From Leisingera aquimarina DSM 24565 (GTDB taxonomy: Bacteria > Pseudomonadota > Alphaproteobacteria > Rhodobacterales > Rhodobacteraceae): a stretch of 64,000 nt of DNA. Positions within the stretch are counted from its first letter, which is position 1; the number at the start of each line of letters is the position of its first letter. The notes below the pieces were generated by a model. The model searched no databases. It was not told where the DNA came from and saw only the letters and a program-made list of their open reading frames with translations. Made by a program: the position numbers and the translations under genes. Location: assembly GCF_000473165.1 (NCBI RefSeq), contig NZ_KI421504.1, positions 186,001 through 250,000 on the forward strand, given 5' to 3'. Below, in pieces: positions 8,004 through 55,296 of this stretch.

Positions 8004-8053
8004 CCCCCCCCTCTCGGCAGATTGCTGCGCAATCGCCTGCCAGGCAGTGGGAC
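8004..8053 (+). repeat. Palindromic insert type A in IS91 copy 1 (run of eight C)
   Basis: Core stem GGCAGATTGC with loop TGC and GCAAT-CGC-CTGCC, preceded by C8 then TCTC. It sits directly after the HUH-motif context MIVP, where other IS91 transposases have IVPGGG. In copy 2 the same insert has C6 and reads through in frame; here C8 shifts the frame. Confidence 0.7.
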
Positions 8054-9049
8054 GGCGGCCTGTCTGCGGATGGCACCGGTTGGATCGCCTGCCGCGGGAA
8101 CTTCTTCCTCTCCGTCCGGGTGCTGTCACGCCTCTACCGCCGCTTCATCCTCGGCGGGCTTGCGGATCGCGCGGCCTTCGACGCTTTCCTGCAACCGCTG
8201 CGCAGGATCGATTGGGTTGTGTATGCCAAGGAACCCTTCGCCGGACCCAGGGCCGTGCTGGCATACCTGTCGCGCTACACCCACCGTGCCGCGATCTCCA
8301 ACAGCCGCCTGATCCGCATGGACGGCCGGGGCCTCACTTTCCGCGTCAAGGATTACCGCGTCCACGGCCCCGGGCGGCAAACCAGCATGACCCTGAAGGC
8401 CGGCGAGTTCATCCGCCGGTTCCTGATCCATGTCCTGCCCAAGGGGCGGCATCGCATCCGCCACTACGGCTTCTTCGGGAATGGCAACCGTGCCGCCAAT
8501 ACCGCCAGGATCCGGGAACGGCTCGGGGCCGGGCAGTCAGATCCGGGTCTCGCGCGCGACGGCACGGCCGGTGAGGCCGAGGCACCCGCCCGCGTCCTCG
8601 CGCTGCCATGCCCCTGCTGCGGCGGGCGGTTGATCATCGCCGAAACCATGGCGCCAGAACGGCGCCCCAGGGCGCCGCCAGGAACAGCGAGGGCTGCCGC
8701 ATGACACGCGCGCCAAAGACCGGAAGTCCAATCGCCGCTGCTCGCGATACCGCTTGCGGCCAATCCGGCATGCCTGCAGCCCGGATAGGAGAGGTGCGAA
8801 GGTTGCCGAGCCCCGCGAGAGGCGGCGCATGCCCCTCAAAGCTCACAAAATCCGTGCCGAAGCTGCCTGCAACGAGCGCAGTTGGCCCAACCTGCAGAAC
8901 AAGAACCAAGGCAATCAACCGCTTCAAACCCCCATGGAGCCAGCTGGCCTGCCCAATTCCAGCACTGCGATTTCCCGCTTGCGCGCTTCTCCGACGCCAG
9001 GCAAGGCCGCGCATCACTCAAACGTCGCGCGTGGCGTCCGAGAAACCTG

Positions 9050-9279
9050 AACCATCCCGGTCGTTTGCCGGAGCGGCAGCCCGAATAGCATTTTACCATC
9101 AGGCAGAACTGGATCGCGGCATCGGAGAACACCGGCGGACGGCCTGGACGTCCGGCCAGGGCGGCAAGCCACGCCATATCCTTGTCGAGCCAGATCAGCA
9201 GCGATTCCCGCCGCTTAAGCGCTTCATTGCAGGACTTCCAGTTCGTCGTGCGGTAGCGAGCAGGTTCGGGCTTGGTCAT
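9050..9279 (-). pseudogene. IS5 family transposase, N-terminal fragment
   Basis: Starts MTKPEPARYRTTNWKSCNEA and continues SLLIWLDKDMAWLA and GRPGRPPVFSDAAIQFCLMV, the N-terminal domain typical of IS5-type transposases. A one-base loss in an A-run near 9098 shifts the frame, and the fragment ends where the IS91 copy 1 terminus begins. The DDE catalytic domain is absent. The bases just upstream of the start look like the element's outer end. Confidence 0.7.
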
Positions 9280-9618
9280 GCCGTGTCTCTTAACCCATCG
9301 GTTTTCCGACGTGAATCCCTAAGGCAGTGAGTTTTGCAACAACGCCGTCATGTCATAATGAAGTCTTTGGTCTAGAAACAAAAAAACCGAACTCTGTCGG
9401 GGCCGCATGGTAACGGATATGGAAACCCTTATCGGACCATGCACCTCTGGCTCACCACGGCTACGACAGTTGTCAGTTTCATTTTGGGTCCCCTATTGGG
9501 CAAACCGTAGGGCCGTAGAGCAGTTTCGGCAATGTCTGCTTTCAACAAATGCTGCGACCTGACTAATAATCAGATTGAGCCGATTTTTCCGAATGCTGCA
9601 CTTTGCATGAACCGCTGC
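9280..9618. other. Gene-free stretch between IS5 fragment and dnaE2
   Basis: Contains the outer end of the IS5 fragment (to about 9330) and then A+T-richer sequence downstream of dnaE2. I see no convincing reading frame, RNA gene or clear terminator. Confidence 0.5.
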
Positions 9619-12600
9619 TTAATGAAAATCCCGGCTTGGAAACAGCCGTTTTGCCTGATCACACGGATGCATGGCGCGGGTGGGATAACGGGATTTTTTC
9701 GGGGTGTCATCTGTACGGGGACCTTCGGTTTTCAGGGCATCGGGCAGCGGGTGGCTCAGTTCAGATAGTTTATGAGATATATCCTGAATGTCCTGCGCAA
9801 TCAGATGCACCACGATGCCCTCCCGTTGCAGATAGCCCCGCACCTGCAGCAGCCGCCCGCCCATGACAATACGGCGGAAGCGTTCATACACCTTAGGCCA
9901 GACCACGACGTTGCTGATCCCGGTTTCATCCTCAAGTGTCAGGAAAATCACGCCGGATGCTGTCCCCGGACGTTGCCGGGTAATCACCAAGCCACACACG
10001 CTATAACAACCAAGCGCGATATCCTGCAACGCGGCATGAGTGACCAGCCCCGGTAGGGCAGGCCGCAAAAGTTCCATTGGATGCGCCCGCAGGCTCAGCC
10101 GAGTTGCGACATAATCCTCGGCCACTTCTTCGCCCAATTGCATGGTTGGTAAGTTAATTTGAGGTTCATCAATGGCTTCTCCATCAATGGGGTCATTGAA
10201 AAGCGGCAACGGATTGTGATCACGGATTGCCTTGACCGCCCAAAGCGCATCGCGCCGGGCAAGGCCTAGATCGAAAAATGCGTCTGCTTCCGCAAGGCGC
10301 GTCAACACATCAGGCCGCAATCCGGCGCGATGCCAAAGCGCTTCTGGGTTTGGATAGCCATTGCCACGCGCGGCCACGATCCAATTTGCATCTTCTTCCT
10401 TGAAACCTTTGATCTGACGAAATCCCAGCCGCAGGGCCAGCGCACCATCCGGGCGGCATTCTAAGGTGTTGTTCCATTCAGAATGGTTGACGCAAATGGC
10501 GCGCGTTTCAACATTATGTTCCCGTGCATCCCGCACGATCTGGGCCGGGGCATAAAAGCCCATGGGCTGAGAATTGAGAAGCGCACAGGCAAAAATTGCC
10601 GGATGGTGGCGTTTCAGCCAAGCCGACACATAGACCAGCATCGCAAAGGCCGCCGCGTGGCTTTCCGGAAAGCCGTAATCGGCAAAGCCTTCGATCTGGG
10701 AAAAGCAACGCTCAGCCACCTCAAGGTTATAGCCATTCTCCAGCATGCCGTTGATGAACTTATCCCGAAAGGTGCCAATGGTCCCCATGCGCCGGAACGA
10801 AGCCAGTGACCGGCGCAAATGATCCGCCTCTTCGGCGGTGAACCCGGCCCCAACCACGGCAATCTGCATCGCCTGTTCCTGAAACAGAGGCACGCCCAAT
10901 GTCCGTTCCGTGACCTTTTCCAACGCTGGACCAAAGGGTTCTGGTTTTTCCAAGCCATGACGCCGACGGATATAAGGGCGCACCATATCCCCCTGAATGG
11001 GGCCGGGGCGCACAATGGCAACCTCGATCACCAGATCATAAAATTCACATGGGCGCATACGGGGCAGGAAATTCATCTGTGCCCGGCTTTCCACCTGAAA
11101 AACGCCTACAGCATCAGCACGGCACAGCATATCATAGGTGTCAGAATCTTCTTGCGGGATTGACGCGATCGTATGTGTCTGACCCTCATGGTGCTGCAAA
11201 AGGTCGAATGCCTTTCGCACGCAACTTAGCATACCCAACCCCAGCACATCGACCTTCAAAATACCCAAGGCATCGATGTCATCTTTGTCCCATTCGATGA
11301 CCGTACGGTCCTCCATCGCTGCGTTCGAAATGGGTGATAACTCGTCCAGCCGTCCACGTGTAATGACAAAGCCACCCACATGCTGGGATAAATGGCGGGG
11401 AAACCCGATCACCTCACCAATCAGGCGAATGGTCTGCATCAAACGGCGGTCCTCTGGATCAAGGCCAAGTTCGCGAATGCGGTCCAGATCGACACCGTCA
11501 TTGGTCATGCCCCAGATTTGACTGGAAAGGCCCGCAGTCACATCTTGTGATAACCCCATGACCTTGCCCACTTCGCGGATTGCAGCCCGCGTGCGAAAAT
11601 GAATCACCGTTGCGCACAGCCCCGCGCGATGGCGACCGTATTTGCGGTAGATCCACTGGATCACCTCTTCGCGCCGCTCATGTTCAAAATCCACGTCGAT
11701 ATCTGGCGGCTCTCCCCTGTATTTTGACACGAAACGTTCAAAAACCATGGCGATCATATCTGGGCTGACATCGGTGATGCGTAACAGATAGCATAGGATG
11801 GAATTTGCCGCAGAACCGCGCCCCTGATAGAGGATGCTCTGTGATCTGGCGAATTGGGTGATGTCATGTACGGTCAGGAAGTAAGCCGGAAATTTTAACT
11901 CCTTCACCAAGGCCAATTCTTTTTCCATAAGCTGGACCGCGCGCTCTGGTGGGCCTGCCGGGTAACGATAGTGGAGCCCTTCATGGGCTAAACGTTCCAG
12001 ACGCGCCTGCGATGTTTCACCCTGCGCATCCTCATGAGGGTACTCATAAGACAATTCCCCCAGATCAAAACTGCATTTGTTGGCAATCTCAAGCGTCCGG
12101 CGCATCGCGCCGGGATGGTTGCGAAACAGCCGCGCCAGATCCTCTCCGGATTTCAGCCGACGCTCTGCGTTTGGCAGCGCACGGGTTCCAATCTGATCAA
12201 TGGTGATATGCTCACGCATGCAGGTCAGCACATCAGCCAGTTGCCTGCGGCTGGCCCGGTGCATCAAAACATCACCGACTGCGACCATCGGCGCGGATAC
12301 CCTATGCGCCAGCCGGGCGCAGGCCGTCAGGTAGCCTTGGTCAGTTCCGTCATACCGCGGCGCCGCGCCCAGAAAAACGTAATTGGAAAAATGTCGCCGC
12401 ATGGCCTGAATATCAGGCGCAACCTCATCCAAACCCGCTTGCGGCATGGCTATCAAAATCATGCCTTTGCAAGCGGTTACCATGTCTTTGCGGTAAAGAT
12501 CGCATTGTCCTTTTTTTGCCCGACGCTTGCCTAACGTCAGCAACCGGGTCAGCCGTTTATAGCCCGCCCGGTCACAGGGCAAAGCAAGCCAATGCACCGG

Positions 12601-13002
12601 GCTGTCCTCTAAAATCAAACGGCAGCCAACTATCAGTTTTGGCAGTGAAAATGCAGTCGGTTTCACAATCGGGTCAGGTCGCCCAACCTCTTGCCGAGAA
12701 GACGAAACGACCCGATGCTGGGACCGGATCTGCACCGCGTCTTGCGGCTCACGCTTCAGCTCTTTCAGCGCCGTCCAGGCCCGCACCACTCCGGCGAGGG
12801 AATTATGATCTGTTATGGCAATGGCGGACAGACCCAGTTCAGCCGCACGCATCACCATTTCTTCGGGATGTGAGGCCCCGGCCAGAAAGGTGAAATTCGT
12901 CGTCACGCAAAGTTCCGCATAGGCCTGCCCCTGTGCATGGGCATCCAGCATGTCCCGGCAAAAGGCCTCGACCGGGCGATGCATACGGTTCACCTCAATC
13001 AT
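9619..13002 (-). CDS. dnaE2: Error-prone DNA polymerase DnaE2
   Basis: C-family polymerase (1127 residues) that performs SOS-type translesion synthesis with ImuA and ImuB. The N-terminal PHP domain starts YAELCVTTNFTFLAGASHPE (29-47) and includes AITDHNSLAG. The catalytic module has GRGSAANS (394-401) and the acidic motif PPDIDVDF with Asp434, Asp436 and Asp438. The C-terminus has an OB-fold (GVIFLTLEDETGISNVVVWP). The start overlaps the imuB stop by four bases. The gene is visibly richer in A+T than the flanking chromosome. Length and motifs are intact, so it is probably functional. Confidence 0.93.
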   Translation of the reverse strand: MIEVNRMHRPVEAFCRDMLDAHAQGQAYAELCVTTNFTFLAGASHPEEMVMRAAELGLSAIAITDHNSLAGVVRAWTALKELKREPQDAVQIRSQHRVVSSSRQEVGRPDPIVKPTAFSLPKLIVGCRLILEDSPVHWLALPCDRAGYKRLTRLLTLGKRRAKKGQCDLYRKDMVTACKGMILIAMPQAGLDEVAPDIQAMRRHFSNYVFLGAAPRYDGTDQGYLTACARLAHRVSAPMVAVGDVLMHRASRRQLADVLTCMREHITIDQIGTRALPNAERRLKSGEDLARLFRNHPGAMRRTLEIANKCSFDLGELSYEYPHEDAQGETSQARLERLAHEGLHYRYPAGPPERAVQLMEKELALVKELKFPAYFLTVHDITQFARSQSILYQGRGSAANSILCYLLRITDVSPDMIAMVFERFVSKYRGEPPDIDVDFEHERREEVIQWIYRKYGRHRAGLCATVIHFRTRAAIREVGKVMGLSQDVTAGLSSQIWGMTNDGVDLDRIRELGLDPEDRRLMQTIRLIGEVIGFPRHLSQHVGGFVITRGRLDELSPISNAAMEDRTVIEWDKDDIDALGILKVDVLGLGMLSCVRKAFDLLQHHEGQTHTIASIPQEDSDTYDMLCRADAVGVFQVESRAQMNFLPRMRPCEFYDLVIEVAIVRPGPIQGDMVRPYIRRRHGLEKPEPFGPALEKVTERTLGVPLFQEQAMQIAVVGAGFTAEEADHLRRSLASFRRMGTIGTFRDKFINGMLENGYNLEVAERCFSQIEGFADYGFPESHAAAFAMLVYVSAWLKRHHPAIFACALLNSQPMGFYAPAQIVRDAREHNVETRAICVNHSEWNNTLECRPDGALALRLGFRQIKGFKEEDANWIVAARGNGYPNPEALWHRAGLRPDVLTRLAEADAFFDLGLARRDALWAVKAIRDHNPLPLFNDPIDGEAIDEPQINLPTMQLGEEVAEDYVATRLSLRAHPMELLRPALPGLVTHAALQDIALGCYSVCGLVITRQRPGTASGVIFLTLEDETGISNVVVWPKVYERFRRIVMGGRLLQVRGYLQREGIVVHLIAQDIQDISHKLSELSHPLPDALKTEGPRTDDTPKKSRYPTRAMHPCDQAKRLFPSRDFH

Positions 13003-14477
13003 GCGAATTCTCCATGCACAAACCAGCCTGGATTTTGCGGGGTATAAAACAACCAGAGCCTTCGCCCTTGTGTCGTCTCAACCCGCCAGTAATCCCGCAA
13101 ACCAGAGCGCCAGTTTTCATCCTCAAGCCACCATTCCGGCGCGATGCGTTCGGGCCCCGTGACACGGCCCGTGGTCAAAGAGATGCGCCGCCAACGAAAA
13201 CGGCTTGGCGGGTGCGGCCCCATTCCGGCAATCGGTTCTGGCCGAAACAGGCAAAGAGGGCGGGGATTTGCGCCGCCCCAACCATTTTGCGGTTCAGAAT
13301 AAGCAGCAGGTGCAATGAGAAAGCTGCGCTCTGGAATGTGGCTATCTGCGGGCAGGAACCGCTGGATATTGTCCAGGCCGATGCGTGTACCAAGACGGGT
13401 GATCAGATCGTCCAGCTTATCTTTGCCGCGGTCCGATACATGGCTGATCTGTTGCACGGGCAGGGTTTCGACCTGTGTTGCCTCCAGCCGCAATTGATCG
13501 ATGCCAAAACCGGCCGCAACCTCGGCCAATCCCCGTTCAAACAGCCGCAGAATACGTGTTGGATCCCGCAAAGGACGCGCCAGACGCAGCTCAACCTGTT
13601 GCTGACCTTGATCCACCCGGCGCAACGAAATGCACAGCATGCGTGCCCCCATCTCTTGCGCCTTCAGTTTGCTGCAAAGTTGCATCAGCAACCGTTCGGT
13701 TCCCGCCATGACATCTGTCAGCAATCCGATCGGTTCCGGCAGTGTTATCCGCACACCGTAATGCGGGGGATCGTTCAGCGGCGTGATCTCTTCGGGCTGT
13801 GTGCCAAGCGCCTGATCAAGCCGCAGCAAAAGATCCGGGCCAAACCGACGGGTCAGCGGCGCGCGCGGAACTGTCGCAAGATCACCAATCTTGCGCAATC
13901 CTAACCGTTGCAGTGCAACAGATGTTTTTTCCTCAAGGCGTAGCGCAGCCACGGGCAGGGTTTCAAGCGCGCCCAGCATATCATCAGAAGGGGCAATTCC
14001 CTCACCATAATGGGCCAACGCCCAAGCCGCCCCGCGCGTATTCCCAAGCCCGATTTGCACAGAAAGCCCCGCCCGCGACAAGCGCCTGCGCATGTCCACG
14101 ATCATGGCCGGTTCTCCCCCTAAAAGATGCGCTGCCCCTGTTATGTCAAGAACCAATCCATCCTCACCTTCCACCCCCACCCAAGGGCAATAGCGGGTCG
14201 CCCAGCGACGCAGGATATGCAGAAACTGCTGGTCTCTTACAGGATCAGCTGGGGTGCTTTGCAGGCTTGGACAAAAGGCCCGAGCATCAGCATAGGACAT
14301 CCCCCGGTGCAATCCCAGCCGCGCGGCATCGCCGTTCAAGCAATATATCCGATTGGCGTTCTGCTGTTTGAGGGTCAGCGCAAAGGGGCCATCAATCAGG
14401 CGCTGGCGTAAAGCCCGGTCACTTGCCAGCCGGGGGAACCACAATGAGACGACGCGACGCTGTATGCCATCGAACAT
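12999..14477 (-). CDS. imuB: ImuB, inactive Y-family polymerase homologue (mutasome adaptor)
   Basis: 492-residue Y-family-like protein that links the beta clamp, ImuA and DnaE2 in damage-induced mutagenesis. It begins MFDGIQRRVVSLWFPRLASDR, the usual ImuB start; the longer in-frame extension would cover most of imuA's coding sequence and is rejected. The palm region GVEGEDGLVLDITGAAHLLGGE lacks the SxDE pair of active Y polymerases, as expected for ImuB. The little-finger region and C-terminal tail are present. Its start overlaps the 3-prime end of imuA by about 59 bases, and its stop overlaps the dnaE2 start. Co-transcribed as imuA-imuB-dnaE2. Confidence 0.9.
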   Translation of the reverse strand: MFDGIQRRVVSLWFPRLASDRALRQRLIDGPFALTLKQQNANRIYCLNGDAARLGLHRGMSYADARAFCPSLQSTPADPVRDQQFLHILRRWATRYCPWVGVEGEDGLVLDITGAAHLLGGEPAMIVDMRRRLSRAGLSVQIGLGNTRGAAWALAHYGEGIAPSDDMLGALETLPVAALRLEEKTSVALQRLGLRKIGDLATVPRAPLTRRFGPDLLLRLDQALGTQPEEITPLNDPPHYGVRITLPEPIGLLTDVMAGTERLLMQLCSKLKAQEMGARMLCISLRRVDQGQQQVELRLARPLRDPTRILRLFERGLAEVAAGFGIDQLRLEATQVETLPVQQISHVSDRGKDKLDDLITRLGTRIGLDNIQRFLPADSHIPERSFLIAPAAYSEPQNGWGGANPRPLCLFRPEPIAGMGPHPPSRFRWRRISLTTGRVTGPERIAPEWWLEDENWRSGLRDYWRVETTQGRRLWLFYTPQNPGWFVHGEFA

Positions 14478-14985: not shown

Positions 14986-15132
14986 ACCTGAGATTAGCAG
15001 CAGATGGCAGTATTGAAAAACACTAGCATATCATCAAAGCAGACTTTGGTGCAGTCGCCGCGAAATGGCGCTTTGAATAGCCCCATGGTTAGTGGGCGCC
15101 TTCTTCCCTAACTTTGAGGCAAGGAGACCATG

Positions 15133-15345
15133 ATGAGCAGCGACGATTTCAAGCGGGATGCTGTCGTGCAGATTACCCGGCGGGGTTACCTGGTCAAAGA
15201 GGTTTCAGAGCGTCTTTGGGTCAGTCAGCACTCCCTCTATGCATGGAAACGGCAGTTTGCGAAAGCATCGTCCGGGGAGGTTGAGAAGGACGCCGAGATC
15301 CGTCGCCTGAAGAAGGAGTTGGCGCGCTTCAGAGGAGCGCAACAT
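15133..15345 (+). pseudogene. IS3 family OrfA fragment
   Basis: Begins MSSDDFKRDAVVQITRRGYL with a GGCAAGGAG ribosome site, continues through a helix-turn-helix (VKEVSERLWVSQHSLYAWKR) and the leucine-zipper part ASSGEVEKDAEIRRLKKELA, then loses similarity after an ILKK-type motif read in another frame. OrfB is absent. Remnant of an IS3 element next to the upstream end of the IS110 copy. Confidence 0.7.
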
Positions 15346-18358: not shown

Positions 18359-19389
18359 TAAGATAGTGCACAGCTAACGGCAGCTTCGCTACAGGTTTTT
18401 CGGACGCCACGCGCGACGTTTGAGTGATGCGCGGCCTTGCCTGGCGTCGGAGAAGCGCGCAAGCGGGAAATCGCGGTGCTGGAATTGGGCAGGCCAGCTG
18501 GCTCTATGGGGGTTTGAAGCGGTTGATTGCCTTGGTTCTTGTTCTGCAGGTTGGGCCAACTGCGCTCGTCGCAGGCAGCTTCTGCATGGATGCTGTGAGC
18601 TTTGAGGGGCATGCGCCGCACCTCGCGGGGCTCGGCAACTTTCTCACCTCTCCTATCCGGGTTGCGGGCATGCCGGATTGGCCGCAAGCGGTATCGCGAG
18701 CAGCGGCGATTGGACTTTCGGTCTTTGGCGCGCGTGTCATGCGGCAGCCCTCGCTGTTCCTGGCGGCGCCCTGGGCTGGTGTTCCTGCGGGAACGTTTCG
18801 ATGATGATCAGGTGCCCGCCGCAGCAGGGGCATGGCAGCGCGAGGACGCGGGCGGGTGCCTCGGCGTCACCGGCCGTGCCATCGTGCGCGAGACCCGGAT
18901 CTGACTGCCCGGCCCCGAGCCGTTCCCGGATCCTGGCGGTATTGGCGGCACGGTTGCCATTCCCGAAGAAGCCGTAGTGGCGGATGCGATGCCGCCCCTT
19001 GGGCAGGACATGGATCAGGAACCGGCGGATGAACTCGCCGGCCTTCAGGGTCATGCTGGTTTGCCGCCCGGGGCCGTGGACGCGGTAATCCTTGACGCGG
19101 AAGGTGAGGCCCCGGCCGTCCATGCGGATCAGGCGGCTGTTGGAGATCGCGGCACGGTGGGTGTAGCGCGACAGGTATGCCAGCCCTGCCCTGGGTCCGG
19201 CGAAGGGTTCCTTGGCATACACGACCCAACCGATCCTGCGCAGCGGTTGCAGGAAAGCGTCGAAGGCCGCGCGATCCGCAAGCCCGCCGAGGATGAAGCG
19301 GCGGTAGAGGCGGGACAGCACCCGGACGGAGAGGAAGAAGTTCCCGCGGCAGGCGATCCACCGCGCACCGTCCGCAGACAGGCCGCCGT

Positions 19390-19436
19390 CCCACTGCCTG
19401 GCAGGCGATTGCGCAGCAATCTGCCGAGAGGGGGGC
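19390..19436 (-). repeat. Palindromic insert type A in IS91 copy 2 (run of six C, in frame)
   Basis: Same element and same site as at 8004-8053, read on the minus strand: C6, TCTC, GGCAGATTGC, loop, GCAAT-CGC-CTGCC. The six-C form keeps tnpA open and adds about 14 codons. Confidence 0.7.
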
Positions 19437-19479
19437 ACGATCATGTGGACATGCGGGTGGTGCGTCATCGCCGAGCCCG

Positions 19480-38982: not shown

Positions 38983-38987
38983 GGGCG

Positions 38988-45115: not shown

Positions 45116-45162
45116 CCCGGCCAATAAAAGTCTCTGGCGCAGGAACCTACAGGCGCCAGAGA

Positions 45163-46910: not shown

Positions 46911-49900
46911 TTACTCGGCCGCCACCGGCGAGCCCGCCGCCGGCACCGGCACAACTCCGGCGCGCGGCTTCCGTCCTGCAAGCAGGCTGAAAGCGGGCGG
47001 CACAAAGTACAGCGAGACGATCGAAGACAGCAGCACACCCCCGGCAATCGAAACAGCGAACGGCGGCCAGAACCCGCCCCCGGCCAAGATAAGCGGCAGG
47101 AACCCCCCGAAAGTCGTGATCGTTGTTGAGATGATATGGCGGCTGGAGCGCATCACCACACCACGGATCGCGTCCCGGTCTCCACGCGAAGCTGCCCGGT
47201 CTTCCTGCAGGGCAGTCACGATGATGATCGCTGCGTTGATCGACACTCCGATTGCCCCGATCACCCCGATCAGCGCCTGGATGCCGAAAGCATAAGAAAA
47301 AACCTCCAGCGGCAGCAGGCTCAGCCCCATCGACAGACCTGCCACCACAAGGACCACACCGCTCAGTCGCCATGAATTGAAGGTCAGAACAATCGTAGCA
47401 ACCGTCGCCACGACCACCAGCCCCATGACCGACATGAGATTGCGGATTGTTTCCGCCCGTGCGTCCCCTTCACCGCCCCACTCAATACGGTAGCCAGGTG
47501 GCAGTTCGATTGGATCCTTGTCCAAGACCTCCTGAAACTCGGAAAGGGCCACATCCGGAAGCACGCCATGAGCCAGGAACCCCTGCACCGTGTTCACGCG
47601 CTCGCCGTTGCGCCGGGCAATCGGGCTGTCAGAGGGTTCCAGCCGCAGCCCGCCGAGCGCCAGCAGCGGAATGCCCGGATTAGCAGATGCCAGCGCCTGG
47701 GACCCGGGAGGCACAATCTGCAGCGCCGCGAGCTTGTCAGCCGCAGCCCGCTCCGGGCCGGACAAACGCACACGCACCGGCAGTTCCTCGGCACTTTCTA
47801 TCAGAGACCCGCCCAAGGCACCTTCTGAAAAACCCTGCAATTGCGCAGCCACATCGTTCAGGTTCAACCCTGCAAGCCGCACCTTGTCCTCATCAAGGTC
47901 GAACAGCAGCTTTGCGGCTCCGCCGGCCAGCACTGTTCGGCTGTGAATCACACTGTCCACACCGGCCATCCGCACACGGGCGTCCTCGCCCAGGGCGCGG
48001 AGCACTTCCAGGTCCGGTCCGACAAGCCGCAGCTCAAGCGGAGCATCAACAGGGGGCCCTTGCTTCAGACCGCGTACCAGTACCCGCGCTTGCGGCAAGG
48101 AGGTATCCAGCGCTCTTTGCAACTCCGGAATAATCCGGGCCGTCGCCTCAGGTGAATCTGTTGTCACCAGCGCCTCCGCAAAGGTCGCGTCATTGTCCCT
48201 GTTGTTCAGCATGTTGTAGTAGAAGGCAGGGGCACTGCGCCCCACTACCCACTGAACCTGGGTAATACCTTCGACCTGGTTCAGAACCTTACCGGCAGCA
48301 ATCGCCGCGTCCCGTGTTTGTTCGATTGCGCTGCCGTCAGCCAATTCCACCTGCACGTAGAACTGGTCGCGATCCACTTCGGGAAAGAATTGCGGACGAA
48401 GTGTTGGAAAGGACAGGAACGCCACAATGGCCGGCGCCGCAGCACACACCATTGCCAGCCGCGGCCATCTCAGCGCCGCGGCCAGGCTCGCATCAAACAG
48501 GCGGCCGGCTGCTTTGCTCCGGATCCCTGATTGCCACCATGCCTGGCCTTCGCGCTCGTCTCTCAGCGCCAGTCCCGCGATGGCGGGAGTGACTGTCAGA
48601 GCCAGCAGCAGCGAGCAGACCAGCATGACGATAACCGAGACTGCGATTGCACCAACAAAGTCGCCGGGCGGCCCAGGCAGCACCATCATCGGGACAAAGG
48701 CCAGAACCGTGGTGACGGTCGAGGCCAAAAGCGGCAGCGCCAGCCGCCGCACGGCGCCGCCGACGGCGGCTTGCGCCGGAACCCCCGCCTGGAGCCGCCG
48801 ACGGACCTCATCTGTGGTCACGATGGCTGCATCGACCAGGAGACCCAGCGCTACAATCAGCCCGGTAACTGACATTTGATGGATGGTCATGCCCAGCTTC
48901 TCAAGAACTGTCAGAGACATCAGGCTGGTCAGCGGCAGCATGGCACCGACAATCAGAGCCGAGCGCCAGCCCATCGACACGAACAGGACCGCAATCACGA
49001 GAGCCACACCCACGGCCATATTCACCGCGACTTCGGTCAGACGCTGTGCGGTATATCTGCTTTGATCGAACAGCAGCTCAAGATGCAAGCCGCCAGGAAG
49101 GTCAGCCTTCATCTCCTCGATTTCCGCTCGGGCTGCGCCGGCCCAAACATCTACCTGCCGGTCATCCTCGATCTTGGCGCCAACCAGCACCGCTCGCCGG
49201 CCGTTGACATAAGCCAGCGCCGCAGCTGGCGTCCTTTCGGTCCGCAGCACGGCAGCAACGTCGCCAACCCGGACCGCTTGCCCGGCTGCACCGGCCCGCA
49301 GCGGGATGTTCCGGATCCGAGCCAGACCGTCAATCTCCCCCGCCAGCTCAACCAGATAGTCAGAGGCACTGCCACGGACCAGCCCGGCCGGCACTTTGGC
49401 GTCGGCCTGCGCGATACGGCTCGCCACCGCGCCAGGCGTCAGCCCCAGAGATGCCAGCGCATTCGCCTCAACCTCGACGCGAATCTCCTCTTCTGCTTCG
49501 CCGTACAGGGCCACCAGCTTGGTATTGGGAACTTGGCGCAGGCGCTCCTGAAGGTCCTCTGCATACCTGCCAAGGATACCCGGTGCTGCCTCTCTGCTGC
49601 CAGCAGCCATGATAGAGGCCAGCATCGTAAAGGCACCAACCCGGTCGTTGTCGAATTCCGGTTCCGGCACGCCGCGGGGCAGTTCTCGCCCGGCGTCGGC
49701 CAGCGCATCGCGCACTTCCGACCAGACCTGTTCGATCCGAGCATCCGGAGTGAAGTCGGACAGCTCGATCTGCACAGTTGAAATTCCTGTCCGCGACACC
49801 GAAGAAATCACATCGATTTCCGGGATTTCGCGCAGTTCCGCTTCGATTTTCTCTGTAACCAGAGCTTCAACCCGCGCTGGATCGGCTCCGGGATAAGGCG

Positions 49901-50039
49901 TTATCACCGTTGCAAAAAGATTGGTGATCGTTGGATCTTCCTGCCGACCGATGGATTGAAAGGCAATTACCCCTAGCGAAGCGATGACCAGAAGCGCCAG
50001 GACCAGAATACGGGGGCGGCGGTACAGATACGTCTCCAT
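46911..50039 (-). CDS. RND family efflux transporter, inner-membrane pump
   Basis: 1042-residue proton-driven pump with 12 membrane helices and two large periplasmic loops. Conserved parts: DPTITNLFATVITPYPGADP, ELREIPEIDVISSVSRTGIS, FDQSRYTAQRLTEVAVNM, and helix 4 GLIVALGLLVDAAIVTTDEV, where the usual Asp-Asp pair of AcrB is Asp-Ala, as in a subset of the superfamily. The second half repeats the fold (ALIGVIGAIGVSINAAIIIV). It lies two bases after the adaptor gene stop. No outer-membrane channel gene is nearby. Substrates probably include toxic hydrophobics. Confidence 0.92.
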   Translation of the reverse strand: METYLYRRPRILVLALLVIASLGVIAFQSIGRQEDPTITNLFATVITPYPGADPARVEALVTEKIEAELREIPEIDVISSVSRTGISTVQIELSDFTPDARIEQVWSEVRDALADAGRELPRGVPEPEFDNDRVGAFTMLASIMAAGSREAAPGILGRYAEDLQERLRQVPNTKLVALYGEAEEEIRVEVEANALASLGLTPGAVASRIAQADAKVPAGLVRGSASDYLVELAGEIDGLARIRNIPLRAGAAGQAVRVGDVAAVLRTERTPAAALAYVNGRRAVLVGAKIEDDRQVDVWAGAARAEIEEMKADLPGGLHLELLFDQSRYTAQRLTEVAVNMAVGVALVIAVLFVSMGWRSALIVGAMLPLTSLMSLTVLEKLGMTIHQMSVTGLIVALGLLVDAAIVTTDEVRRRLQAGVPAQAAVGGAVRRLALPLLASTVTTVLAFVPMMVLPGPPGDFVGAIAVSVIVMLVCSLLLALTVTPAIAGLALRDEREGQAWWQSGIRSKAAGRLFDASLAAALRWPRLAMVCAAAPAIVAFLSFPTLRPQFFPEVDRDQFYVQVELADGSAIEQTRDAAIAAGKVLNQVEGITQVQWVVGRSAPAFYYNMLNNRDNDATFAEALVTTDSPEATARIIPELQRALDTSLPQARVLVRGLKQGPPVDAPLELRLVGPDLEVLRALGEDARVRMAGVDSVIHSRTVLAGGAAKLLFDLDEDKVRLAGLNLNDVAAQLQGFSEGALGGSLIESAEELPVRVRLSGPERAAADKLAALQIVPPGSQALASANPGIPLLALGGLRLEPSDSPIARRNGERVNTVQGFLAHGVLPDVALSEFQEVLDKDPIELPPGYRIEWGGEGDARAETIRNLMSVMGLVVVATVATIVLTFNSWRLSGVVLVVAGLSMGLSLLPLEVFSYAFGIQALIGVIGAIGVSINAAIIIVTALQEDRAASRGDRDAIRGVVMRSSRHIISTTITTFGGFLPLILAGGGFWPPFAVSIAGGVLLSSIVSLYFVPPAFSLLAGRKPRAGVVPVPAAGSPVAAE

Positions 50040-50041
50040 GG

Positions 50042-51175
50042 TCAGCGCCCGCCTGCAGTAGTGATGGCCTGGCCATTGCTGAATTTATGGGCTCCGGACC
50101 GGACATACAGAGCGCCACTGGAAAATGTGCCGCGGACAAATGCACGACCGTTTTCAACATGCAGAACTTCGGCTGCCTCCCGGCTGATGGTCTGCGCCCC
50201 GTCTTTTTCCACCACAGTCAGAACCGACCAGAGACCGTTGCCTGCATCACTCAGCGCTGTTAGGCCAACCCAAGCACCGCGGCCCGGAACCTGCCGTTCC
50301 ATTTGCAGCCGCACCACCTGCCCCATTGCCAACTGCGTGTCCGCTGGCAAGTCAACCAGAACTGCAACAGTTCGCGTGGCGGGGTCCATATCTCTGGAAA
50401 CGGCAACGACCCGGCCCTGGAGTTCCTGACCCAGATATTCCAGCTTAAGTACTTGCGATACCCGAAGCGCTGCGGCCCGGTCAGGAGGAACACCAATGCG
50501 GGCTTGAGGCCGGCTGGTTTCTTGCAACTGAACAATTGCTGTGCCTGCATTAATGACCGCGCCTTCATCCGCCAGCCGCGCGGCAATCCGCCCGGCGTAA
50601 GGAGCTGTCACCACAGATTTCTCGATATCCAGCTCCACCTGCGCATTAGCGGCATCCAGCGCATTTCTGCGAGCCTTTAGAGCCGCTAGCGAAAACTGCG
50701 CCTCATCATTGATCTGACTGCTCGTCCAGCCCTCACCGGCCAGTTTCGCACGTCGTGCCGCGGTGCGCCGAGCCAGCTCTATTTCGGCATCCAGCCCCGC
50801 CCGCTCCGCAGCCAGCCGCGTGCGTTCGATTTGCAGCGGCTTTGCATCCAGCCGGGCCAGCATCTGGCCCTGAGCCACTTGGCTGCCCTCTTCCACCAGC
50901 ATCTCTTCGATCAGCCCGGCGCGTTCCGCCGCAGCGAGAGTTTGGCGGGCGGGCTCGACCCGTCCTGCAAAGCTTTCCCGGATGACATATCCATCGTCGA
51001 CCGTCAGCCGCCCAGTTAACGCAAGTGCGGGGTCCCCAGTACTGCCGCGCTCAGCCTTGCCTGCACTTGCGTGCAATGTCTGAACCGCCACCGCGCTGCC
51101 AGCGAAAACCGTCAGAGCAACGACAGCGGCTGCTGGCCAGCCACGAAAATGCTGTTTCAGCGATGTCATATTCAT
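50042..51175 (-). CDS. RND periplasmic adaptor (membrane fusion protein)
   Basis: 377 residues with an N-terminal membrane anchor (WPAAAVVALTVFAGSAVAVQ), a lipoyl half (FAGRVEPARQTLAAAERAGL ... GSQVAQGQMLARLDAKPLQI), an alpha-hairpin (ERAGLDAEIELARRTAARRA), the second lipoyl half (KSVVTAPYAGRIAARLADEG) and beta-barrel region. It joins the RND pump to an outer-membrane channel. First gene of the pair, divergent from the TetR regulator. Confidence 0.9.
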   Translation of the reverse strand: MNMTSLKQHFRGWPAAAVVALTVFAGSAVAVQTLHASAGKAERGSTGDPALALTGRLTVDDGYVIRESFAGRVEPARQTLAAAERAGLIEEMLVEEGSQVAQGQMLARLDAKPLQIERTRLAAERAGLDAEIELARRTAARRAKLAGEGWTSSQINDEAQFSLAALKARRNALDAANAQVELDIEKSVVTAPYAGRIAARLADEGAVINAGTAIVQLQETSRPQARIGVPPDRAAALRVSQVLKLEYLGQELQGRVVAVSRDMDPATRTVAVLVDLPADTQLAMGQVVRLQMERQVPGRGAWVGLTALSDAGNGLWSVLTVVEKDGAQTISREAAEVLHVENGRAFVRGTFSSGALYVRSGAHKFSNGQAITTAGGR

Positions 51176-51197
51176 GGGGTGCTCCTGATAAAAATAA

Positions 51198-51250
51198 GTA
51201 TCCCTTACTTACATGGGTAACACCTACTTGGTGTAAGAAACTCTTACTTT
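51198..51250. promoter_or_regulatory. Candidate TetR operator region
   Basis: ACACC-TACTT-GGTGT (51220-51234) is a perfect five-base-arm palindrome, flanked by TTAC...GTAA (51205-51220) and by repeated CTTACTT motifs on both sides. It lies between the divergent adaptor and TetR genes. Confidence 0.5.
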
Positions 51251-51305
51251 CAAGACGCCGATGGGGTAGAAATTGAAAGCCGCCGCAACCGTGCAAGGGA
51301 ACCCG

Positions 51306-51923
51306 ATGACAGGGCCACAATCCAAGAAGAAATTCCATCACGGCGATCTCAAGGCCGCCTTGATCGATGTGACCATTGAAATGATCCGGGACAGGCGGGT
51401 TGAGGACGTTAGCGTCGCCGATGCCGCCCGCGCCGCCCAAGTTTCGAGCGGCGCGCCCTACCGGCACTTCAAGGACCGGGATGAGTTGCTGGCAAATGTC
51501 GCCGCCGAAGGCTTCCGGAGATTGTCAAAGGCCAAGATTACTGCCTTTGGCAAACATCCGAAGCACTCAATTGAAAGCCTGATTGCTGGTGGCTGCGCCT
51601 ATGCTGAGTTCGGCTCGGACAATCCCGAACTGTTTCACCTCATGTGGGCGGCGGCCCGCAACCAGGATACCACTGATGTCGCGCGCGTGGCCAGCAACGC
51701 GACATACAACACCTTCATTGAAGAACTGACGGGTATAATGAAGGCACAAGGCCTCGGCCATCTGGACCCGCATGAATTCGGAACGCCTTTGTGGGCAATG
51801 GTGCATGGTTTTGCAAGTTTGCTGATCGGCAAACCTGCAATTCTGGACAGCAGCCGCCAGGCGCTCAGAAGCCGCATAGCAGATGCCACTTGGGCTTACG
51901 TCCGGGGCTACAAAGCAGGCTAG
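51306..51923 (+). CDS. TetR/AcrR family repressor of the RND pump
   Basis: 205 residues. The N-terminal helix-turn-helix is KKKFHHGDLKAALIDVTIEM, VEDVSVADAARAAQVSSGAP and YRHFKDRDELLANVAAEGF. The C-terminal TetR_C (WHG) domain contains LFHLMWAAARNQ and LWAMVHGFASLLIGKP. The start MTGPQSKKKF is preferred over an ATG 11 codons earlier. Divergent orientation and the intervening palindrome indicate that it represses the pump and itself until a drug-like ligand binds. Confidence 0.87.
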   Translation: MTGPQSKKKFHHGDLKAALIDVTIEMIRDRRVEDVSVADAARAAQVSSGAPYRHFKDRDELLANVAAEGFRRLSKAKITAFGKHPKHSIESLIAGGCAYAEFGSDNPELFHLMWAAARNQDTTDVARVASNATYNTFIEELTGIMKAQGLGHLDPHEFGTPLWAMVHGFASLLIGKPAILDSSRQALRSRIADATWAYVRGYKAG

Positions 51924-52100
51924 AACCCTGACCGCAGCCCGCTACAGGCTTTCGGCACAGTCTAGTGGATTAAGTAAGACCAAACCGGTTTCTCCCCCGG
52001 CAGCTATCTGATACGGCAATTTGGGCCGCCACGCTGGATTTACGAGGGCAATCCCCCCTCGACGCTCGCGCGAAAAGGCTCGGCACTATTGCCAGGCGCT

Positions 52101-52619
52101 TCAGTTCGCCCCGCTTACAGACACCAGTATCGGGCAGTTTGTGCAGACGCGGCTGTCGCAAAGCCGGCAGGTCCGCAGCTTGTGCGTGTCGTCACCGGCA
52201 TCAGCTTGCAGCAGTTTTTCAAGCAGCCGGGCCAGGTCCTTTTGCTCGTCACCGGACAGGCTGCCGGTCACTGCCTCCAGTGCGGCCAGCCGCTCGCGCA
52301 GTATGTTCTCCCGTGCGGCTTGGCCGGCTTCCGTGAGATAAAGCGCAATGCTGCGCTTGTCGTGCTCCGCCGCCTGGCGTCTGACAAGGCCGTCCTCGGC
52401 CAGCCTGTCGATCAGGCGCACCGTGCCCGTATGGGTGAGATCCAAAAGCCGGCTCAGTGCGTCATTCGACAAACCCGGCTGGTGGCCGAGCGCGCAAAGC
52501 GCCGCCGGTCCTTCTCCGGAGCGGTGGAACTGCCTCGCCAGAACCGTCTTCAGCTCATCGTGCAGACAGAGCACCGCCGCCCCCAGTAAATTCGCAGTCC
52601 GCCGTGATTCATCCGTCAT
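52101..52619 (-). CDS. MarR family regulator with C-terminal cysteine cluster
   Basis: 172 residues. Winged-helix core: PAALCALGHQPGLSNDALSR, LLDLTHTGTVRLIDRLAEDG, LVRRQAAEHDKRSIALYLTE. After the dimer helix, the tail carries five cysteines within the last 25 residues (LRTCRLCDSRVCTNCPILV), which could bind metal or sense oxidants and is unusual for MarR. Divergent from the hydrolase; both starts are close to copies of GTGACTCACACAC, the probable operator. Confidence 0.83.
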   Translation of the reverse strand: MTDESRRTANLLGAAVLCLHDELKTVLARQFHRSGEGPAALCALGHQPGLSNDALSRLLDLTHTGTVRLIDRLAEDGLVRRQAAEHDKRSIALYLTEAGQAARENILRERLAALEAVTGSLSGDEQKDLARLLEKLLQADAGDDTHKLRTCRLCDSRVCTNCPILVSVSGAN

Positions 52620-52630
52620 ACGGGGAATAT

Positions 52631-52689
52631 GTGACTCACACACTTGAATTGGAAGAGATCATTTATATATGTGACTCACACACATATAT
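52631..52689. promoter_or_regulatory. Two operator copies between MarR and hydrolase genes
   Basis: GTGACTCACACAC occurs at 52631-52643 and again at 52671-52683, 40 bases apart. The second copy sits in a larger palindrome ATATATGTG-N7-CACATATAT (52665-52689). One copy lies 12 bases from each start codon, so a single regulator could block both promoters. Confidence 0.65.
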
Positions 52690-52700
52690 GGAGAAGCCCA

Positions 52701-53690
52701 ATGACCGTTGACCTTCAGACCAGTGAACCGGCATCGCAGCAATCCGCGCCAGGCCATGGTCCGCACCTGATCGCGGTCGCTGCCGAAGAAACCTTTGCGG
52801 GAACCTGGCCGTTTCAAGCCCGTTACAGTTCCGCCGCCGGGAATCCGATGCACTATATCGATGAGGGCAGCGGCCCGGAGACGCTACTGCTGCTGCATGG
52901 CGAACCGACCTGGAGCTACCTTTACCGTGCTCAGATTGCTGAATGGTCCCGTGATGCCCGTGTGATTGCCCTTGACCATATGGGATTTGGCAAAAGCGCC
53001 ACCCCGCAAGACCGCAGCTATTGGCTGCAGGACCATATAGACAATGCGGAACGCTTTGTTTTGGAGCAGGATCTCAGGGATGTGACCCTTGTCATGCATG
53101 ATTTCGGCGGGCCGGTTGGCATGGGCGTAGCCATCCGGCACCCGGACCGGATCAAACGGATCGTATCGGTCAACGGCCCGACGCCCCTGGGGCAGCCTGA
53201 TCTTTTGGATCGCTTGATTGCCAATGCCGGTGCTGCTCCCTGGTTTCAGTGGATCATGCAGGCAGAGGAAAAAGGCACCCTGGAAGCGGTGCTCGGCCAG
53301 CTCAGCTACAACATCCTGTCGACTCTCAAACTGAATGGGTTTGTCCGCAATGAGCTGATCACCGATACTTGGCTGAATGCTTACCGGGCACCATTTCCCG
53401 CACCTGAATTTGCTGCGGGTGCAATCGGCTGGGCCAAAGGCTTTGCCACCGGCAAACATGCGTTCGAAGAGGCGAGCGGCACCGTAAAGTCCGAACTGGC
53501 AAAGAAACCTGCTATCGCTATCTGGGGCGAAGCCGACAGGACGCTGCAGGCAGAGCAGTTTCTGCCCCTGTTCCGGCAAGCGTTCCCCGGCGGCCAGGTC
53601 AAGACCTTGCCCGAAACCGGCCACTACAGCCCGGAAGACGCGCCGGAGCTAGTATCCGGACTGGTGTCTGAGTTTATTGCAGCCAGCTGA
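52701..53690 (+). CDS. Alpha/beta hydrolase, haloalkane dehalogenase-like
   Basis: 329 residues: MHYIDEGSGPETLLLLHGEP with oxyanion HGEPTWSYLYR (67-77), DHMGFGKSATP, nucleophile Asp134 in LVMHDFGGPVGMGV, IRHPDRIKRIVSVNGPTPLG, acid in IAIWGEADRTL and catalytic His in LPETGHYSPEDAPELVS. HGEPTWSYLYR is typical of subfamily I haloalkane dehalogenases, but the residue after the nucleophile is Phe rather than the halide-binding Trp, so dehalogenation is doubtful; epoxide or ester hydrolysis is possible. GGAG precedes the ATG. Controlled by the divergent MarR protein. Confidence 0.82.
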   Translation: MTVDLQTSEPASQQSAPGHGPHLIAVAAEETFAGTWPFQARYSSAAGNPMHYIDEGSGPETLLLLHGEPTWSYLYRAQIAEWSRDARVIALDHMGFGKSATPQDRSYWLQDHIDNAERFVLEQDLRDVTLVMHDFGGPVGMGVAIRHPDRIKRIVSVNGPTPLGQPDLLDRLIANAGAAPWFQWIMQAEEKGTLEAVLGQLSYNILSTLKLNGFVRNELITDTWLNAYRAPFPAPEFAAGAIGWAKGFATGKHAFEEASGTVKSELAKKPAIAIWGEADRTLQAEQFLPLFRQAFPGGQVKTLPETGHYSPEDAPELVSGLVSEFIAAS

Positions 53691-53898
53691 ACGGCGGGTG
53701 TGCTAACAGCAAGGCTCTGCATCTGCGCCTTCTCCGGCGCGGATGCAGCAGGCGCGGCAACATGCGGGCGCAGGCCAGGCGCAGCACGGGCAGCTATGCC
53801 CGCAGTCTGCAGGCCTGCTATCAACCAGAGAACATTCTCAAACATGCTGAAAGTATCCATTTGGCCCCGGCGGAGTGTCCCGCCGGAGCTGGCTGTGG

Positions 53899-54132
53899 TC
53901 ATTTGGTGATACGGCCGAGGAAATCCTGCATCTCTGCAGCAATCACATCGCCATATTCCTCAAGCGCAAAGTGGCCTGTGTCCAGCAGATGGAATTCCAC
54001 GTCGTTTAGATCAGCCTTGTAGGGATGGGCACCGTCCGCCGGAAAGATGTGATCGTTCTTGCCCCATACAATCAGCGCTGGAGGCTGATGCTCTCTGAAC
54101 AGGGCTTGCCACTTCGGATACTCTGTAACCAT
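53899..54132 (-). pseudogene. Alpha/beta hydrolase, C-terminal fragment cut by IS91
   Basis: Reads [38 protein letters not shown] (catalytic acid), [17 protein letters not shown] (catalytic His) and a normal C-terminus FLGRITK. The N-terminal two-thirds, including the nucleophile, is missing: similarity stops at about 54132, where integrase sequence of the IS91 copy begins on the opposite strand. Confidence 0.78.
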
Positions 54133-54720
54133 GTCGCCACGAAGCTGATCCGTGACACGGCGAGCCCCTACGAGACGCTGGCCAAGCTGCAGGATCGAAG
54201 CCGGGATTAGCGGACCGGGGCGGTGCCCCGCCCGAGGCTTGAAATCGCTGACATCTTTCGCGCCCATGGTCCCGCATGGCGGCGGGCCAATGCCGGGCAT
54301 GTCAGCCTCACCCAGCTCAGGGTGATGTCGGCGATCGAAGCCTGCCGGACCGAGGCGCTCGGCGGGCATGTGGCCGCCTGCGCCAAGTGCGGCCACCGGC
54401 ACGTCGCGTACAATTCCTGCAAGAACCGGCACTGCCCGAAGTGCCAGGGGCCCGCGGCGCGGGACTGGATGGCGGCGCGGGCCGATGACCTGCTGCCGGT
54501 GGAGTATTTCCACGTGGTCTTCACCCTGCCGACGGAGATCGCACGGATCGCCTACTGGAACAAGAAGGCGGTCTACGGCCTGTTGTTCCGAGCGTCAGCC
54601 GAGACCGTGGCGACTATCGCCGCCGATCCCCGGCATCTTGGCGCCCGTGTGGGCATGACCTCTGTACTTCATACCTGGGGTTCGGCGCTGACCCACCACC
54701 CGCATGTCCACATGATCGTG

Positions 54721-54767
54721 CCCCCTCCCGGCAGATTGCTGCGCAATCGCCTGCCGGGCAACGGGAC
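54721..54767 (+). repeat. Palindromic insert type A, copy 3a (run of five C)
   Basis: C5, TCCC, GGCAGATTGC, loop TGC, GCAAT-CGC-CTGCC at exactly the IVP/GGL site occupied in copies 1 and 2. C5 instead of C6 shifts the frame. Confidence 0.7.
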
Positions 54768-55140
54768 GGCGGCCTGTCACCTGACGCTACACGCTGGATC
54801 GCCTGCCGCCCTGGCTTCCTTCTGCCCGTGCGCGTCCTGGCCCGGCTGTTCCGGCGCCTTTTCCTGGAAGGGCTGTCGGCGCTGCACAAGGCCGGGCAGC
54901 TTCAGTTCTTCGGTGATCTGGAAGGACTGGCCGACCCCGCAGCCTTCGCCGCCTGCCTCGCCCCGCTCCGCAAGACCGAATGGGTCGTCTACGCCAAACC
55001 GCCCTTCGGCGGGCCTGAGGCTGTCCTCGCCTATCTCAGCCGGTACACCCACCGCGTGGCGATCTCGAACCATCGCCTTGTCAGCGCCGATGCCGATACT
55101 GTGGCGTTCCGATGGAAGGGTTACCGGATCAAGCGCGGCG

Positions 55141-55184
55141 CACCACTGCCCGGCAGTGCATTGCGCAGCAATGTCACGAGAGGG
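55141..55184 (-). repeat. Palindromic insert type A, copy 3b (opposite orientation, in frame)
   Basis: CACTGCCCGGCAG, then ATTGCGCAGCAAT and CGAGAGGG: the reverse complement of the other inserts with a few changes. It lies between IKRG and RMKVMRLKTGEF of tnpA and adds about 14 codons (APLPGSALRSNVTR) without changing frame. Confidence 0.65.
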
Positions 55185-55247
55185 AGGATGAAGGTGATGC
55201 GGCTCAAGACCGGCGAATTCATCCGCCGGTTCCTGCTGCACGTCCTG

Positions 55248-55296
55248 CCCCCTTTCGGCAGATTTGGCGCGGCCAAATCGCCTGCCGGGCAATGGG
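55248..55296 (+). repeat. Palindromic insert type A, copy 3c (diverged stem)
   Basis: C5, TTTC, GGCAGATTTGG, loop, CCAAATCGCCTGCC. The inner stem changed on both sides together (TTGC/GCAA to TTTGG/CCAAA), which suggests selection for pairing. It sits in HVLP-GFHRIRHYG; copies 1 and 2 have the empty site HVLPKGRHRIRHYG. Confidence 0.7.

Follow-up and report, generated by a model that had tools for sequence, protein, structure and literature searches.

A stretch of 64,000 nt from Leisingera aquimarina, here called the window, has five short palindromic sequences within transposase (tnpA) genes of IS91 (Table 1). This raises the question of whether the palindromes are ordinary segments of the IS91 protein or inserted mobile elements and, if the latter, how they came to lie in these genes. 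All five related copies described in an earlier note on this DNA are present, and they occupy three codon positions of tnpA, with one copy inverted, as had been proposed. All three IS91 copies are filled at site a; site b, where the element is inverted, and site c are filled only in the copy at 54–55 kb. Site c is uninterrupted in the 8-kb and 19-kb copies. Sulfitobacter, Leisingera M527 and Paracoccus have intact IS91 genes, which are without inserts. These empty sites prove that the segments are true insertions, also as claimed. The reading as normal IS91 protein segments is refuted by these empty sites, and the same elements are found in several IS families; its probability is close to nil. 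Ends of the window copies were defined from the empty sites, and net inserts were measured against intact IS91. Alignment with uninterrupted genes fixed the exact ends and revealed no target duplication. The 15-nt gap in the tnpA gene with three elements is also present in the intact Leisingera M527 gene.

Table 1. Palindromic elements and their IS91 host genes in the window (coordinates are window positions)
Feature	Position	Strand	Properties
Element copy 1	8009..8049	+	41 nt; IS91 tnpA site a, after HVHMIVP; insert +44 with extra C
Element copy 2	19392..19432	-	41 nt; IS91 tnpA site a; net insert +42
Element copy 3	54723..54763	+	41 nt; site a of diverged IS91; net insert +41
Element copy 4	55144..55184	-	41 nt; GTG-A-CATTGC hairpin, antisense; IS91 site b; net insert +42
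Element copy 5	55250..55294	+	45 nt; GGCAGATTTGG/CCAAATCGCC hairpin; IS91 site c, after HVLP; net insert +44
Interrupted IS91 tnpA host	7456..8704	+	Zn_Tnp_IS91 upstream; Y2_Tnp downstream, in a different frame
Second interrupted IS91 tnpA host, part	18737..19468	-	Y2_Tnp
IS91 tnpA with three elements	54223..55543	+	No further indel or stop except a 15-nt gap

The element is usually 41 nt in length, with a range of 34–45 nt in the dispersed family that includes all five window copies. It starts with CCCTCTC, which is followed by a variable hairpin and the tail TGCCGGGCARYG. In 41-mers the hairpin consists of 3 bp, one unpaired base (A in most), 6 bp and a 3-nt loop. Of 72 hairpins, 69 open their stem with a G-C pair. 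The two arms had been said to change together in one copy; this paired change is real and is general to the family, with 96.8% of stem cells paired and a covariation score of 0.522 vs 0.151 for shuffled data. Weakly folding rows were removed (12 of 159, then 2 of 147), and L114 (1 of 73) was left out of the hairpin set before the ends and tags were analysed.

A 27-base core, CGGCAGATTGCTGCGCAATCGCCTGCC, has three matches in the window at three or fewer mismatches and none across 100 shuffles. The full pattern is found 49 times in the L. aquimarina genome, where all 49 loci were read, three of them repeating known sites, and the reversed control gives none, and it is present in 19 of 21 Leisingera genomes, with a control count of zero in every genome. 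Copy number differs widely between Leisingera genomes (49, 48 and 40 vs 0), and plasmid pDSHI04 of Dinoroseobacter shibae DFL 12 carries three copies. Chance repeats are rejected, as reversed and shuffled controls for window, genome and Leisingera set all give zero. In the named scan, matches are nearly all in Rhodobacterales; in the sample of the class outside the family, 14 genomes matched vs 17 with a reversed-control match, which is the chance level. No Rfam model matches the 64-kb window above its gathering score, and the four element-rich loci gave three matches, all below threshold; a known Rfam RNA is therefore rejected for these sequences. Judged from sequence, the hairpins are a dispersed family of non-autonomous repeats, present in both orientations across marine Rhodobacterales genera and not confined to IS91. 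The earlier note knew of no named equivalent in this order, and none was found in the open-licence PMC literature; a term search of a Paracoccus mobilome paper (PMC3281130) gave no mention of palindromes.

Empty sites were found for ISPpa4, IS3 and IS91. At the ISPpa4 site GTC|GAC the insert is a clean 41 nt and the target is not duplicated. The best filled/empty pair is 98.0% identical over 300 nt without gaps, and 30 of 76 pairs at ≥80% identity are gap-free, gaps elsewhere being due in part to host divergence. Neither the clean ISPpa4 insert nor the gap-free pairs display a TA target duplication of the RUP/MITE type. Among 71 site groups the target has C at −1 in 56 and G at +1 in 65, followed by A (43), T (42) and G (45); five named chance loci were removed before this table (71 + 5 groups) was drawn up, which reduced 145 rows to 140. 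Insertion is clean, without target duplication, between the C and G of a C|GATG-like target. One IS3 has gained an extra G at the target, as has, probably, one IS66. No polymorphism was seen among 30 Pseudosulfitobacter plasmids, which are identical across one filled site.

An insert length close to a multiple of three had been suggested as a rule. This is not borne out, either by the net inserts in Table 1 or by the distinct gap-free filled/empty pairs at ≥80% identity, where the insert is a multiple of three in only 3 of 29 and shifts the frame in 26. The related proposal, that codons are added without breaking the gene, applies to a 42-base insert in IS3 and to the +42 inserts at IS91 site a (copy 2) and site b, all of which keep the frame, but not to the majority. 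By our reading, the insert in an IS5 of Leisingera M527 carries an in-frame stop.

The L. aquimarina genome has 31 site groups. L174, in ilvD, was taken as a chance match, and L084 and L188 are of terminator type, which leaves 28, two of which (L056) are rearranged duplicates. By our reading, 27 of these lie in transposase genes and the remaining one in the gene of an IS91-associated integrase; the intergenic sites in this genome are terminator-type. Outside L. aquimarina, transposase homology is found at 67 of 85 sites vs 11 of 210 control positions, with labels that are partly our own reading of translations, as is true of part of the homology reference set, including that for the control; the other 18 named sites have no transposase match. 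NCBIfam matches of the flanks, from which 3 of 85 had been removed, provide an independent check on these labels. Some ten IS families are represented among the models that match the flanks, although one flank can match several related models. Elements lie in both orientations relative to the host genes. Other stops or frame changes are present in 23 of 33 element-bearing IS5 copies, and of seven IS5 copies without a detected element two are clean and five are not, these counts being crude. An IS5 with two elements is found in seven copies that are 100% identical across a 62-bp probe, and the single copy read through has further frameshifts. Hosts are overwhelmingly transposase genes, which the inserts usually break, and IS elements so interrupted still multiply.

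Certain positions are occupied repeatedly. The Asp codon of the IS5 DSTG motif, in the context LL[VI]|DSTG, is filled in 18 host lineages, from lineage lists thinned by hand. On the IS5 tree this site has 12 label changes vs 10.7 for shuffled labels, at least five of them forced by strong branches. Vertical inheritance as the sole cause is rejected, since the filled state is not clustered. A target matrix learned without the Asp site ranks that site 43rd on the sense strand and 16th on the other. The catalytic codons of IS5, which we take to be D121, D195 and E263, have insert sites at the first two and adjoining the third. Of 48 IS5 rows, 23 fall in catalytic windows, vs a mass of 0.087 (P 1.5e-12, a value that assumes independent lineages, although their independence is incomplete); when each position is counted once, the excess is only 3 of 14 (P 0.12). 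Each recurrent IS5 position has a single orientation, and one hairpin class tends to recur there: the hairpin distance within a site is 6.57 vs 8.52 permuted, and 4.12 vs 8.78 with the most-hit site excluded, with 0 of 5000 permutations as low in either case. Hairpins show no excess similarity to target flanks (191 site groups; five tests, z −0.44 to 0.75), and guide-like pairing between them is rejected. The link of class to site is thus without a visible physical basis, and part of it may be due to descent.

Probably, these are non-autonomous miniature mobile elements of 34–45 bp that are moved as a folded strand by an enzyme acting in trans. The element would be mobilized as a folded single strand, either a cruciform or a single-stranded DNA hairpin, which the enzyme would recognize and cut. 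Recognition of this kind would leave the ends constant and the hairpin free to vary provided that it pairs, and would allow scarless joining. The enzyme would favour particular sites within IS genes, and a broken multi-copy IS would be tolerated and still be spread by copies moved in trans; together these might explain why IS genes dominate as hosts. No parent or mobilizer was found among right ends lacking a left end examined in L. aquimarina, which are chance matches, terminator-type or decayed copies. A more specific proposal, tentative at best, is homing: an undescribed recombinase system would place hairpins at exact conserved positions in the transposase genes of some ten IS families, in many cases at catalytic codons, with hairpin class linked to site.

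Perhaps no targeting is needed, and elements insert anywhere, are lost from essential genes, and persist and multiply with IS copies. Multiplication of interrupted IS5 fits such survivorship, as does the tolerance of damage suggested by the other lesions in IS5 hosts. It is nevertheless somewhat unlikely as the only cause: the 28 of 28 non-terminator groups in mobile-element genes are counts of sites and not of copies, the intergenic ones are terminator-type, and the IS5 Asp codon is filled in many lineages despite its low matrix rank. Elements might instead be REP-like repeats that belong to the GTAG or CGTC superfamily and are mobilized by a RAYT or another HUH transposase. Size, hairpin, unpaired ends, scarless insertion and the alphaproteobacterial host agree with this, and CGTC REPs are likewise described in PMC3733652 as having no known transposase. 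We regard it as unlikely, however, as the stem has no adjoining GTAG or CGTC tag, its first pair is not A-T, there is no CCA tail, and 41-mers have a 3-nt loop. Y1_Tnp is present in 6 of 21 Leisingera genomes and is missing from genomes G386 (48 pattern matches) and G403 (21), so that dependence on a RAYT is rejected.

The near restriction to transposase genes and repeated hits at catalytic codons could also suggest a brake selected by the host, insertions being retained for silencing transposases. Any frameshift would silence as well, and a catalytic position needs another reason; moreover, the catalytic excess is small by distinct site, and we consider the brake quite improbable. Still less credible is an intron-like element skipped by transcript or ribosome, leaving the transposase functional. 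Catalytic codons are occupied, as with inteins, the three-element IS91 is otherwise without lesions, and pairwise pN/pS is 0.31 to 0.56 within a group of four closely related IS91 copies that includes one identical pair, from few changes (e.g. 8 synonymous, 7 non-synonymous). Against this, pairs that include the 8-kb and 19-kb copies have values of 0.95 to 1.18, owing in part to poorly aligned ends, insert orientation and length both vary, and many IS5 hosts, including the one with two elements, have additional lesions.

The repeat class extends over many Rhodobacterales genera and mostly occupies and breaks transposase genes, precisely and without scars. Some of the IS pseudogenes of Rhodobacterales are explained by its insertions, and a search pattern is ready for use. 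If homing were true, this would be a widespread mobile element specialized in knocking out mobile elements, possibly kept for restraining them.

Among known systems, the Rickettsia RPEs had been offered as a parallel. They too are palindromes within reading frames; they are described as 105–146 bp in length, fused in frame, and found in protein genes of many kinds. The in-frame parallel mostly fails here, given the frame shifts in 26 of 29 inserts and the other IS5 lesions, and hosts, among the sites that were readable, are nearly all transposase genes. Integron attC sites are recombined as a folded strand with an extrahelical base, a variable stem and scarless joining. The hairpin family shares the unpaired base, the variable stem, the scarless joining and, as proposed here, the folded strand, but its ends have no visible GTTRRRY box and its target is C|G. 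According to PMC3733652, GTAG REPs are short palindromes, presumably mobilized in trans, with a GTAG tag and a RAYT gene; the present family has no GTAG at its ends and needs no RAYT. CGTC REPs are there described as 20–40 bp hairpins of alphaproteobacteria with heterogeneous stems, no dedicated transposase and some copies inside genes, although they are mostly intergenic; their tag is CGTC, TGTC or CCTC, their stems open with A-T pairs, and they have 4–5 nt loops and a CCA tail. Rhodobacterales hairpins share their size, unpaired ends, variable stems, hosts in the alphaproteobacteria, occurrence within genes and want of a dedicated transposase, but have different ends, a G-C pair at the foot of the stem, a loop of only 3 nt and an unpaired A, and their hosts are transposase genes. 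Which enzyme moves transposase-less palindromes, a question left by that paper for CGTC REPs, can now be tested.

The closest precedent is the pneumococcal RUP, which compares better than the RPEs. According to PMC2229807, RUP is a MITE of 107 bp with TA-ended terminal repeats, a target duplication and ends in common with IS630-Spn1 (on Oggioni and Claverys, 1999). The hairpin family is shorter (34–45 bp), has a covarying hairpin and a C|G target without duplication, and the unpaired right ends examined in L. aquimarina led to no parent IS. However, both are small non-autonomous repeats within transposase genes of several IS families; for RUP of Streptococcus pneumoniae, more than six families are reported, with inactivation of the genes (PMC2229807). 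Whether such repeats limit IS activity, the question raised there for RUP, becomes testable in the Rhodobacterales as well.

The five hairpin elements that the earlier note placed inside IS91 tnpA genes are borne out by re-reading of the window sequence, their positions agreeing to within a few bases. The ends of these copies are near-constant and the hairpin between them is variable. At the left all five have CCCTCTC, with small variants, the hairpin lies in the middle, and the right end is TGCCGGGCARYG, or in one window subtype TGCCAGGCAGTG instead. Covariation was assessed with 73 distinct 41-mers, reduced to 72 by removal of one chance match. The hairpin plan consists of nine pairs around one unpaired position, mostly A. 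Paired cells amount to 96.8% vs 74.8% in shuffles, double changes in the stem number 120 vs 41.7, and the covariation score is 0.522, compared with 0.151 in shuffles and at most 0.127 for slid partners. Of the five measures, two (pairs with a double change, and pair types) stand out less against shuffles (173 and 38 of 500). Elements of other lengths have hairpins built to the same plan.

The proposal that these are true insertions is upheld by Sulfitobacter, Leisingera M527 and Paracoccus, whose intact IS91 genes have the sites empty. Within the window, site a of tnpA is filled in all three IS91 copies, and sites b (inverted) and c are filled only in the copy at 54-55 kb. In ISPpa4, an IS5, the empty GTC/GAC becomes GTC/CCCTCTC...CAATG/GAC, an exact 41-nt insert, and in a tyrosine recombinase gene adjoining IS91 the filled form and its empty relative are 98.0% identical over 300 nt with no gap. 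Filled/empty pairs are gap-free in 7 of 12 cases at ≥90% identity and in 30 of 76 at ≥80%. In the gap-free pairs the insert length ranges from 37 to 43 nt (41 in 19 of 29), and only three of 29 are multiples of three; in one IS3 insert of 42 extra bases the frame happens to stay. The target over 71 groups of equivalent sites is C/GATG. An extra G is present after insertion into one IS3 target (GTCGAG to GTGCGAG), and an IS66 site (L165) has the same look, its empty form being inferred.

Different hairpin inserts, of 39 and 27 nt, are also present in the window IS91 copies at 8 and 19 kb (see table). Stretches of 25-30 bases of the 39-mer reappear, at 90-96%, in different surroundings (L233, L331, L164, L250, L219), and the 27-mer is present in the neighbouring integrase gene.

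Coordinates of IS91 copies, other hairpin inserts and individual IS loci
Feature	Record	Position
IS91 copy	window	7456..8704
IS91 copy (part)	window	18737..19468
IS91 copy with three elements	window	54223..55543
39-nt hairpin insert in IS91	window	7782-7820
27-nt hairpin insert in IS91	window	7932-7959
39-nt and 27-nt inserts, matching places of IS91 copy	window	18.5-19.6 kb
IS5 copy with two elements	L072	880-1887
IS3 insertion with extra G	L410	around 2043
IS5 insertion, pDSHI04	L411	2789
IS5 insertions, pDSHI04	L412	56570 and 65464

The two-ended pattern has 49 matches in the 5.34 Mb genome of L. aquimarina and none in the reversed control; the right end alone has 51 there and 66 in another genome, G386, with no control matches. 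Nineteen of 21 Leisingera genomes have 2 to 49 matches each, some low counts being chance-like. In a sample of 385 genomes spread evenly over the class, 18 match: four of the five from the family of L. aquimarina and 14 others, mostly with single matches. Since 17 genomes have reversed-control matches, the pattern is at chance level outside the family; G195 and G116, from outside it, nonetheless show paired hairpins. A tighter pattern, scanned over named records, gave at least 115 stretches, and nearly all of the 80 matches listed are named as Rhodobacterales taxa. Also among those listed are an Ignavibacteriales stretch, probably a chance match, and two loci of the gammaproteobacterium Vreelandella neptunia (L304, L342), where copies lie within genes of IS3 and IS5 on a single contig, which points to transfer outside the Rhodobacterales. 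On plasmid pDSHI04 of Dinoroseobacter shibae, three IS5 copies have the same element, in each case at an identical position near codon 30.

All 49 matches in L. aquimarina were fetched and, with looser matches, form 31 site groups. Two of these are intergenic, of terminator type and next to ordinary genes (hisH, selD/mnmH-like and AraC-like flanks), a third is a chance match within ilvD, and the other 28 are, by our reading, transposases, one of these an IS91-associated integrase. NCBIfam searches of 43 flanks of the 28 groups return IS5, IS3, IS91, IS1182, IS66, IS256, IS481 and tyrosine recombinases; flbT is among the neighbours into which a few flanks extend. In the named loci, transposase homology lies within 500 bp of 67 of 85 sites vs 11 of 210 other positions within those loci; the 18 sites without a match include several that are IS by eye, some at contig ends and some unexplained. 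Pfam and NCBIfam searches of 82 named-locus flanks concur with transposase hosts, with a few ordinary genes, e.g. gyrB. Relatives with the hairpin GGCGGC-AAA-GCCGCC precede GGGAGTATTTTT-like stretches, in the manner of terminators, in several Leisingera species (L084, L188, L198, L121, L117 and similar loci), and in L. aquimarina lie beside ordinary genes such as hisH.

The simplest reading is that insertion inactivates the host transposase and that broken copies spread in trans. In favour of the alternative, in which the insert is bypassed and the enzyme stays functional, are the three-element IS91, which has no other lesions, and the pN/pS of 0.31 to 0.56, with few changes, among four close IS91 copies. 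However, among 33 IS5 copies that carry elements, 23 show additional stops or frame changes, elements occur in both orientations, and one IS5 with two elements is present seven times, the single copy read through showing further frameshifts; bypass is thus very improbable, and inactivation is preferred. In pairs with the IS91 copies found at 8 and 19 kb of the window, pN/pS is 0.95 to 1.18. In the IS5 copy at L072 (elements +41 and +40), the frame is lost at the first catalytic Asp and regained about 25 codons on.

Mapped on ISPpa4, IS5 insertions are confined to a limited number of codons, each recurrent codon with a single orientation. D121 (LLVD/STG) is filled in 18 host lineages, D195 in three and codon 264, beside E263, in two. 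A target matrix learned without D121 ranks it 43rd in the gene for sense and 16th for antisense insertion. In a tree built from 32 IS5 flanks, whose empty rows are loci fetched for other elements so that the filled:empty ratio is not a census, the two states need 12 changes vs 10.7 for shuffled labels, and strong branches force at least five. The element has therefore been gained repeatedly at a single nucleotide, or gained there and precisely lost. Hairpin types within one site are more alike than permuted ones, also with D121 left out, which may partly reflect descent; comparison of hairpins with their own target flanks revealed no likeness.

The data show clean joining at C/G, constant ends, kept pairing and site choice. 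A folded strand of the element is inferred to be handled by an enzyme acting in trans. RAYT-like Y1 transposases are absent from two element-rich genomes, and no longer element with the same ends was present among the right ends inspected.

No name for this Rhodobacterales hairpin family was found in open-licence papers. The precedent is the pneumococcal RUP, described in PMC2229807 as a small repeat within many IS transposase genes. Nearest in build are the CGTC REPs, whose tag, stem base and tail, as given in PMC3733652, the Rhodobacterales element lacks. The family is filed as non-autonomous palindromic elements that belong to neither RUP nor CGTC REPs.
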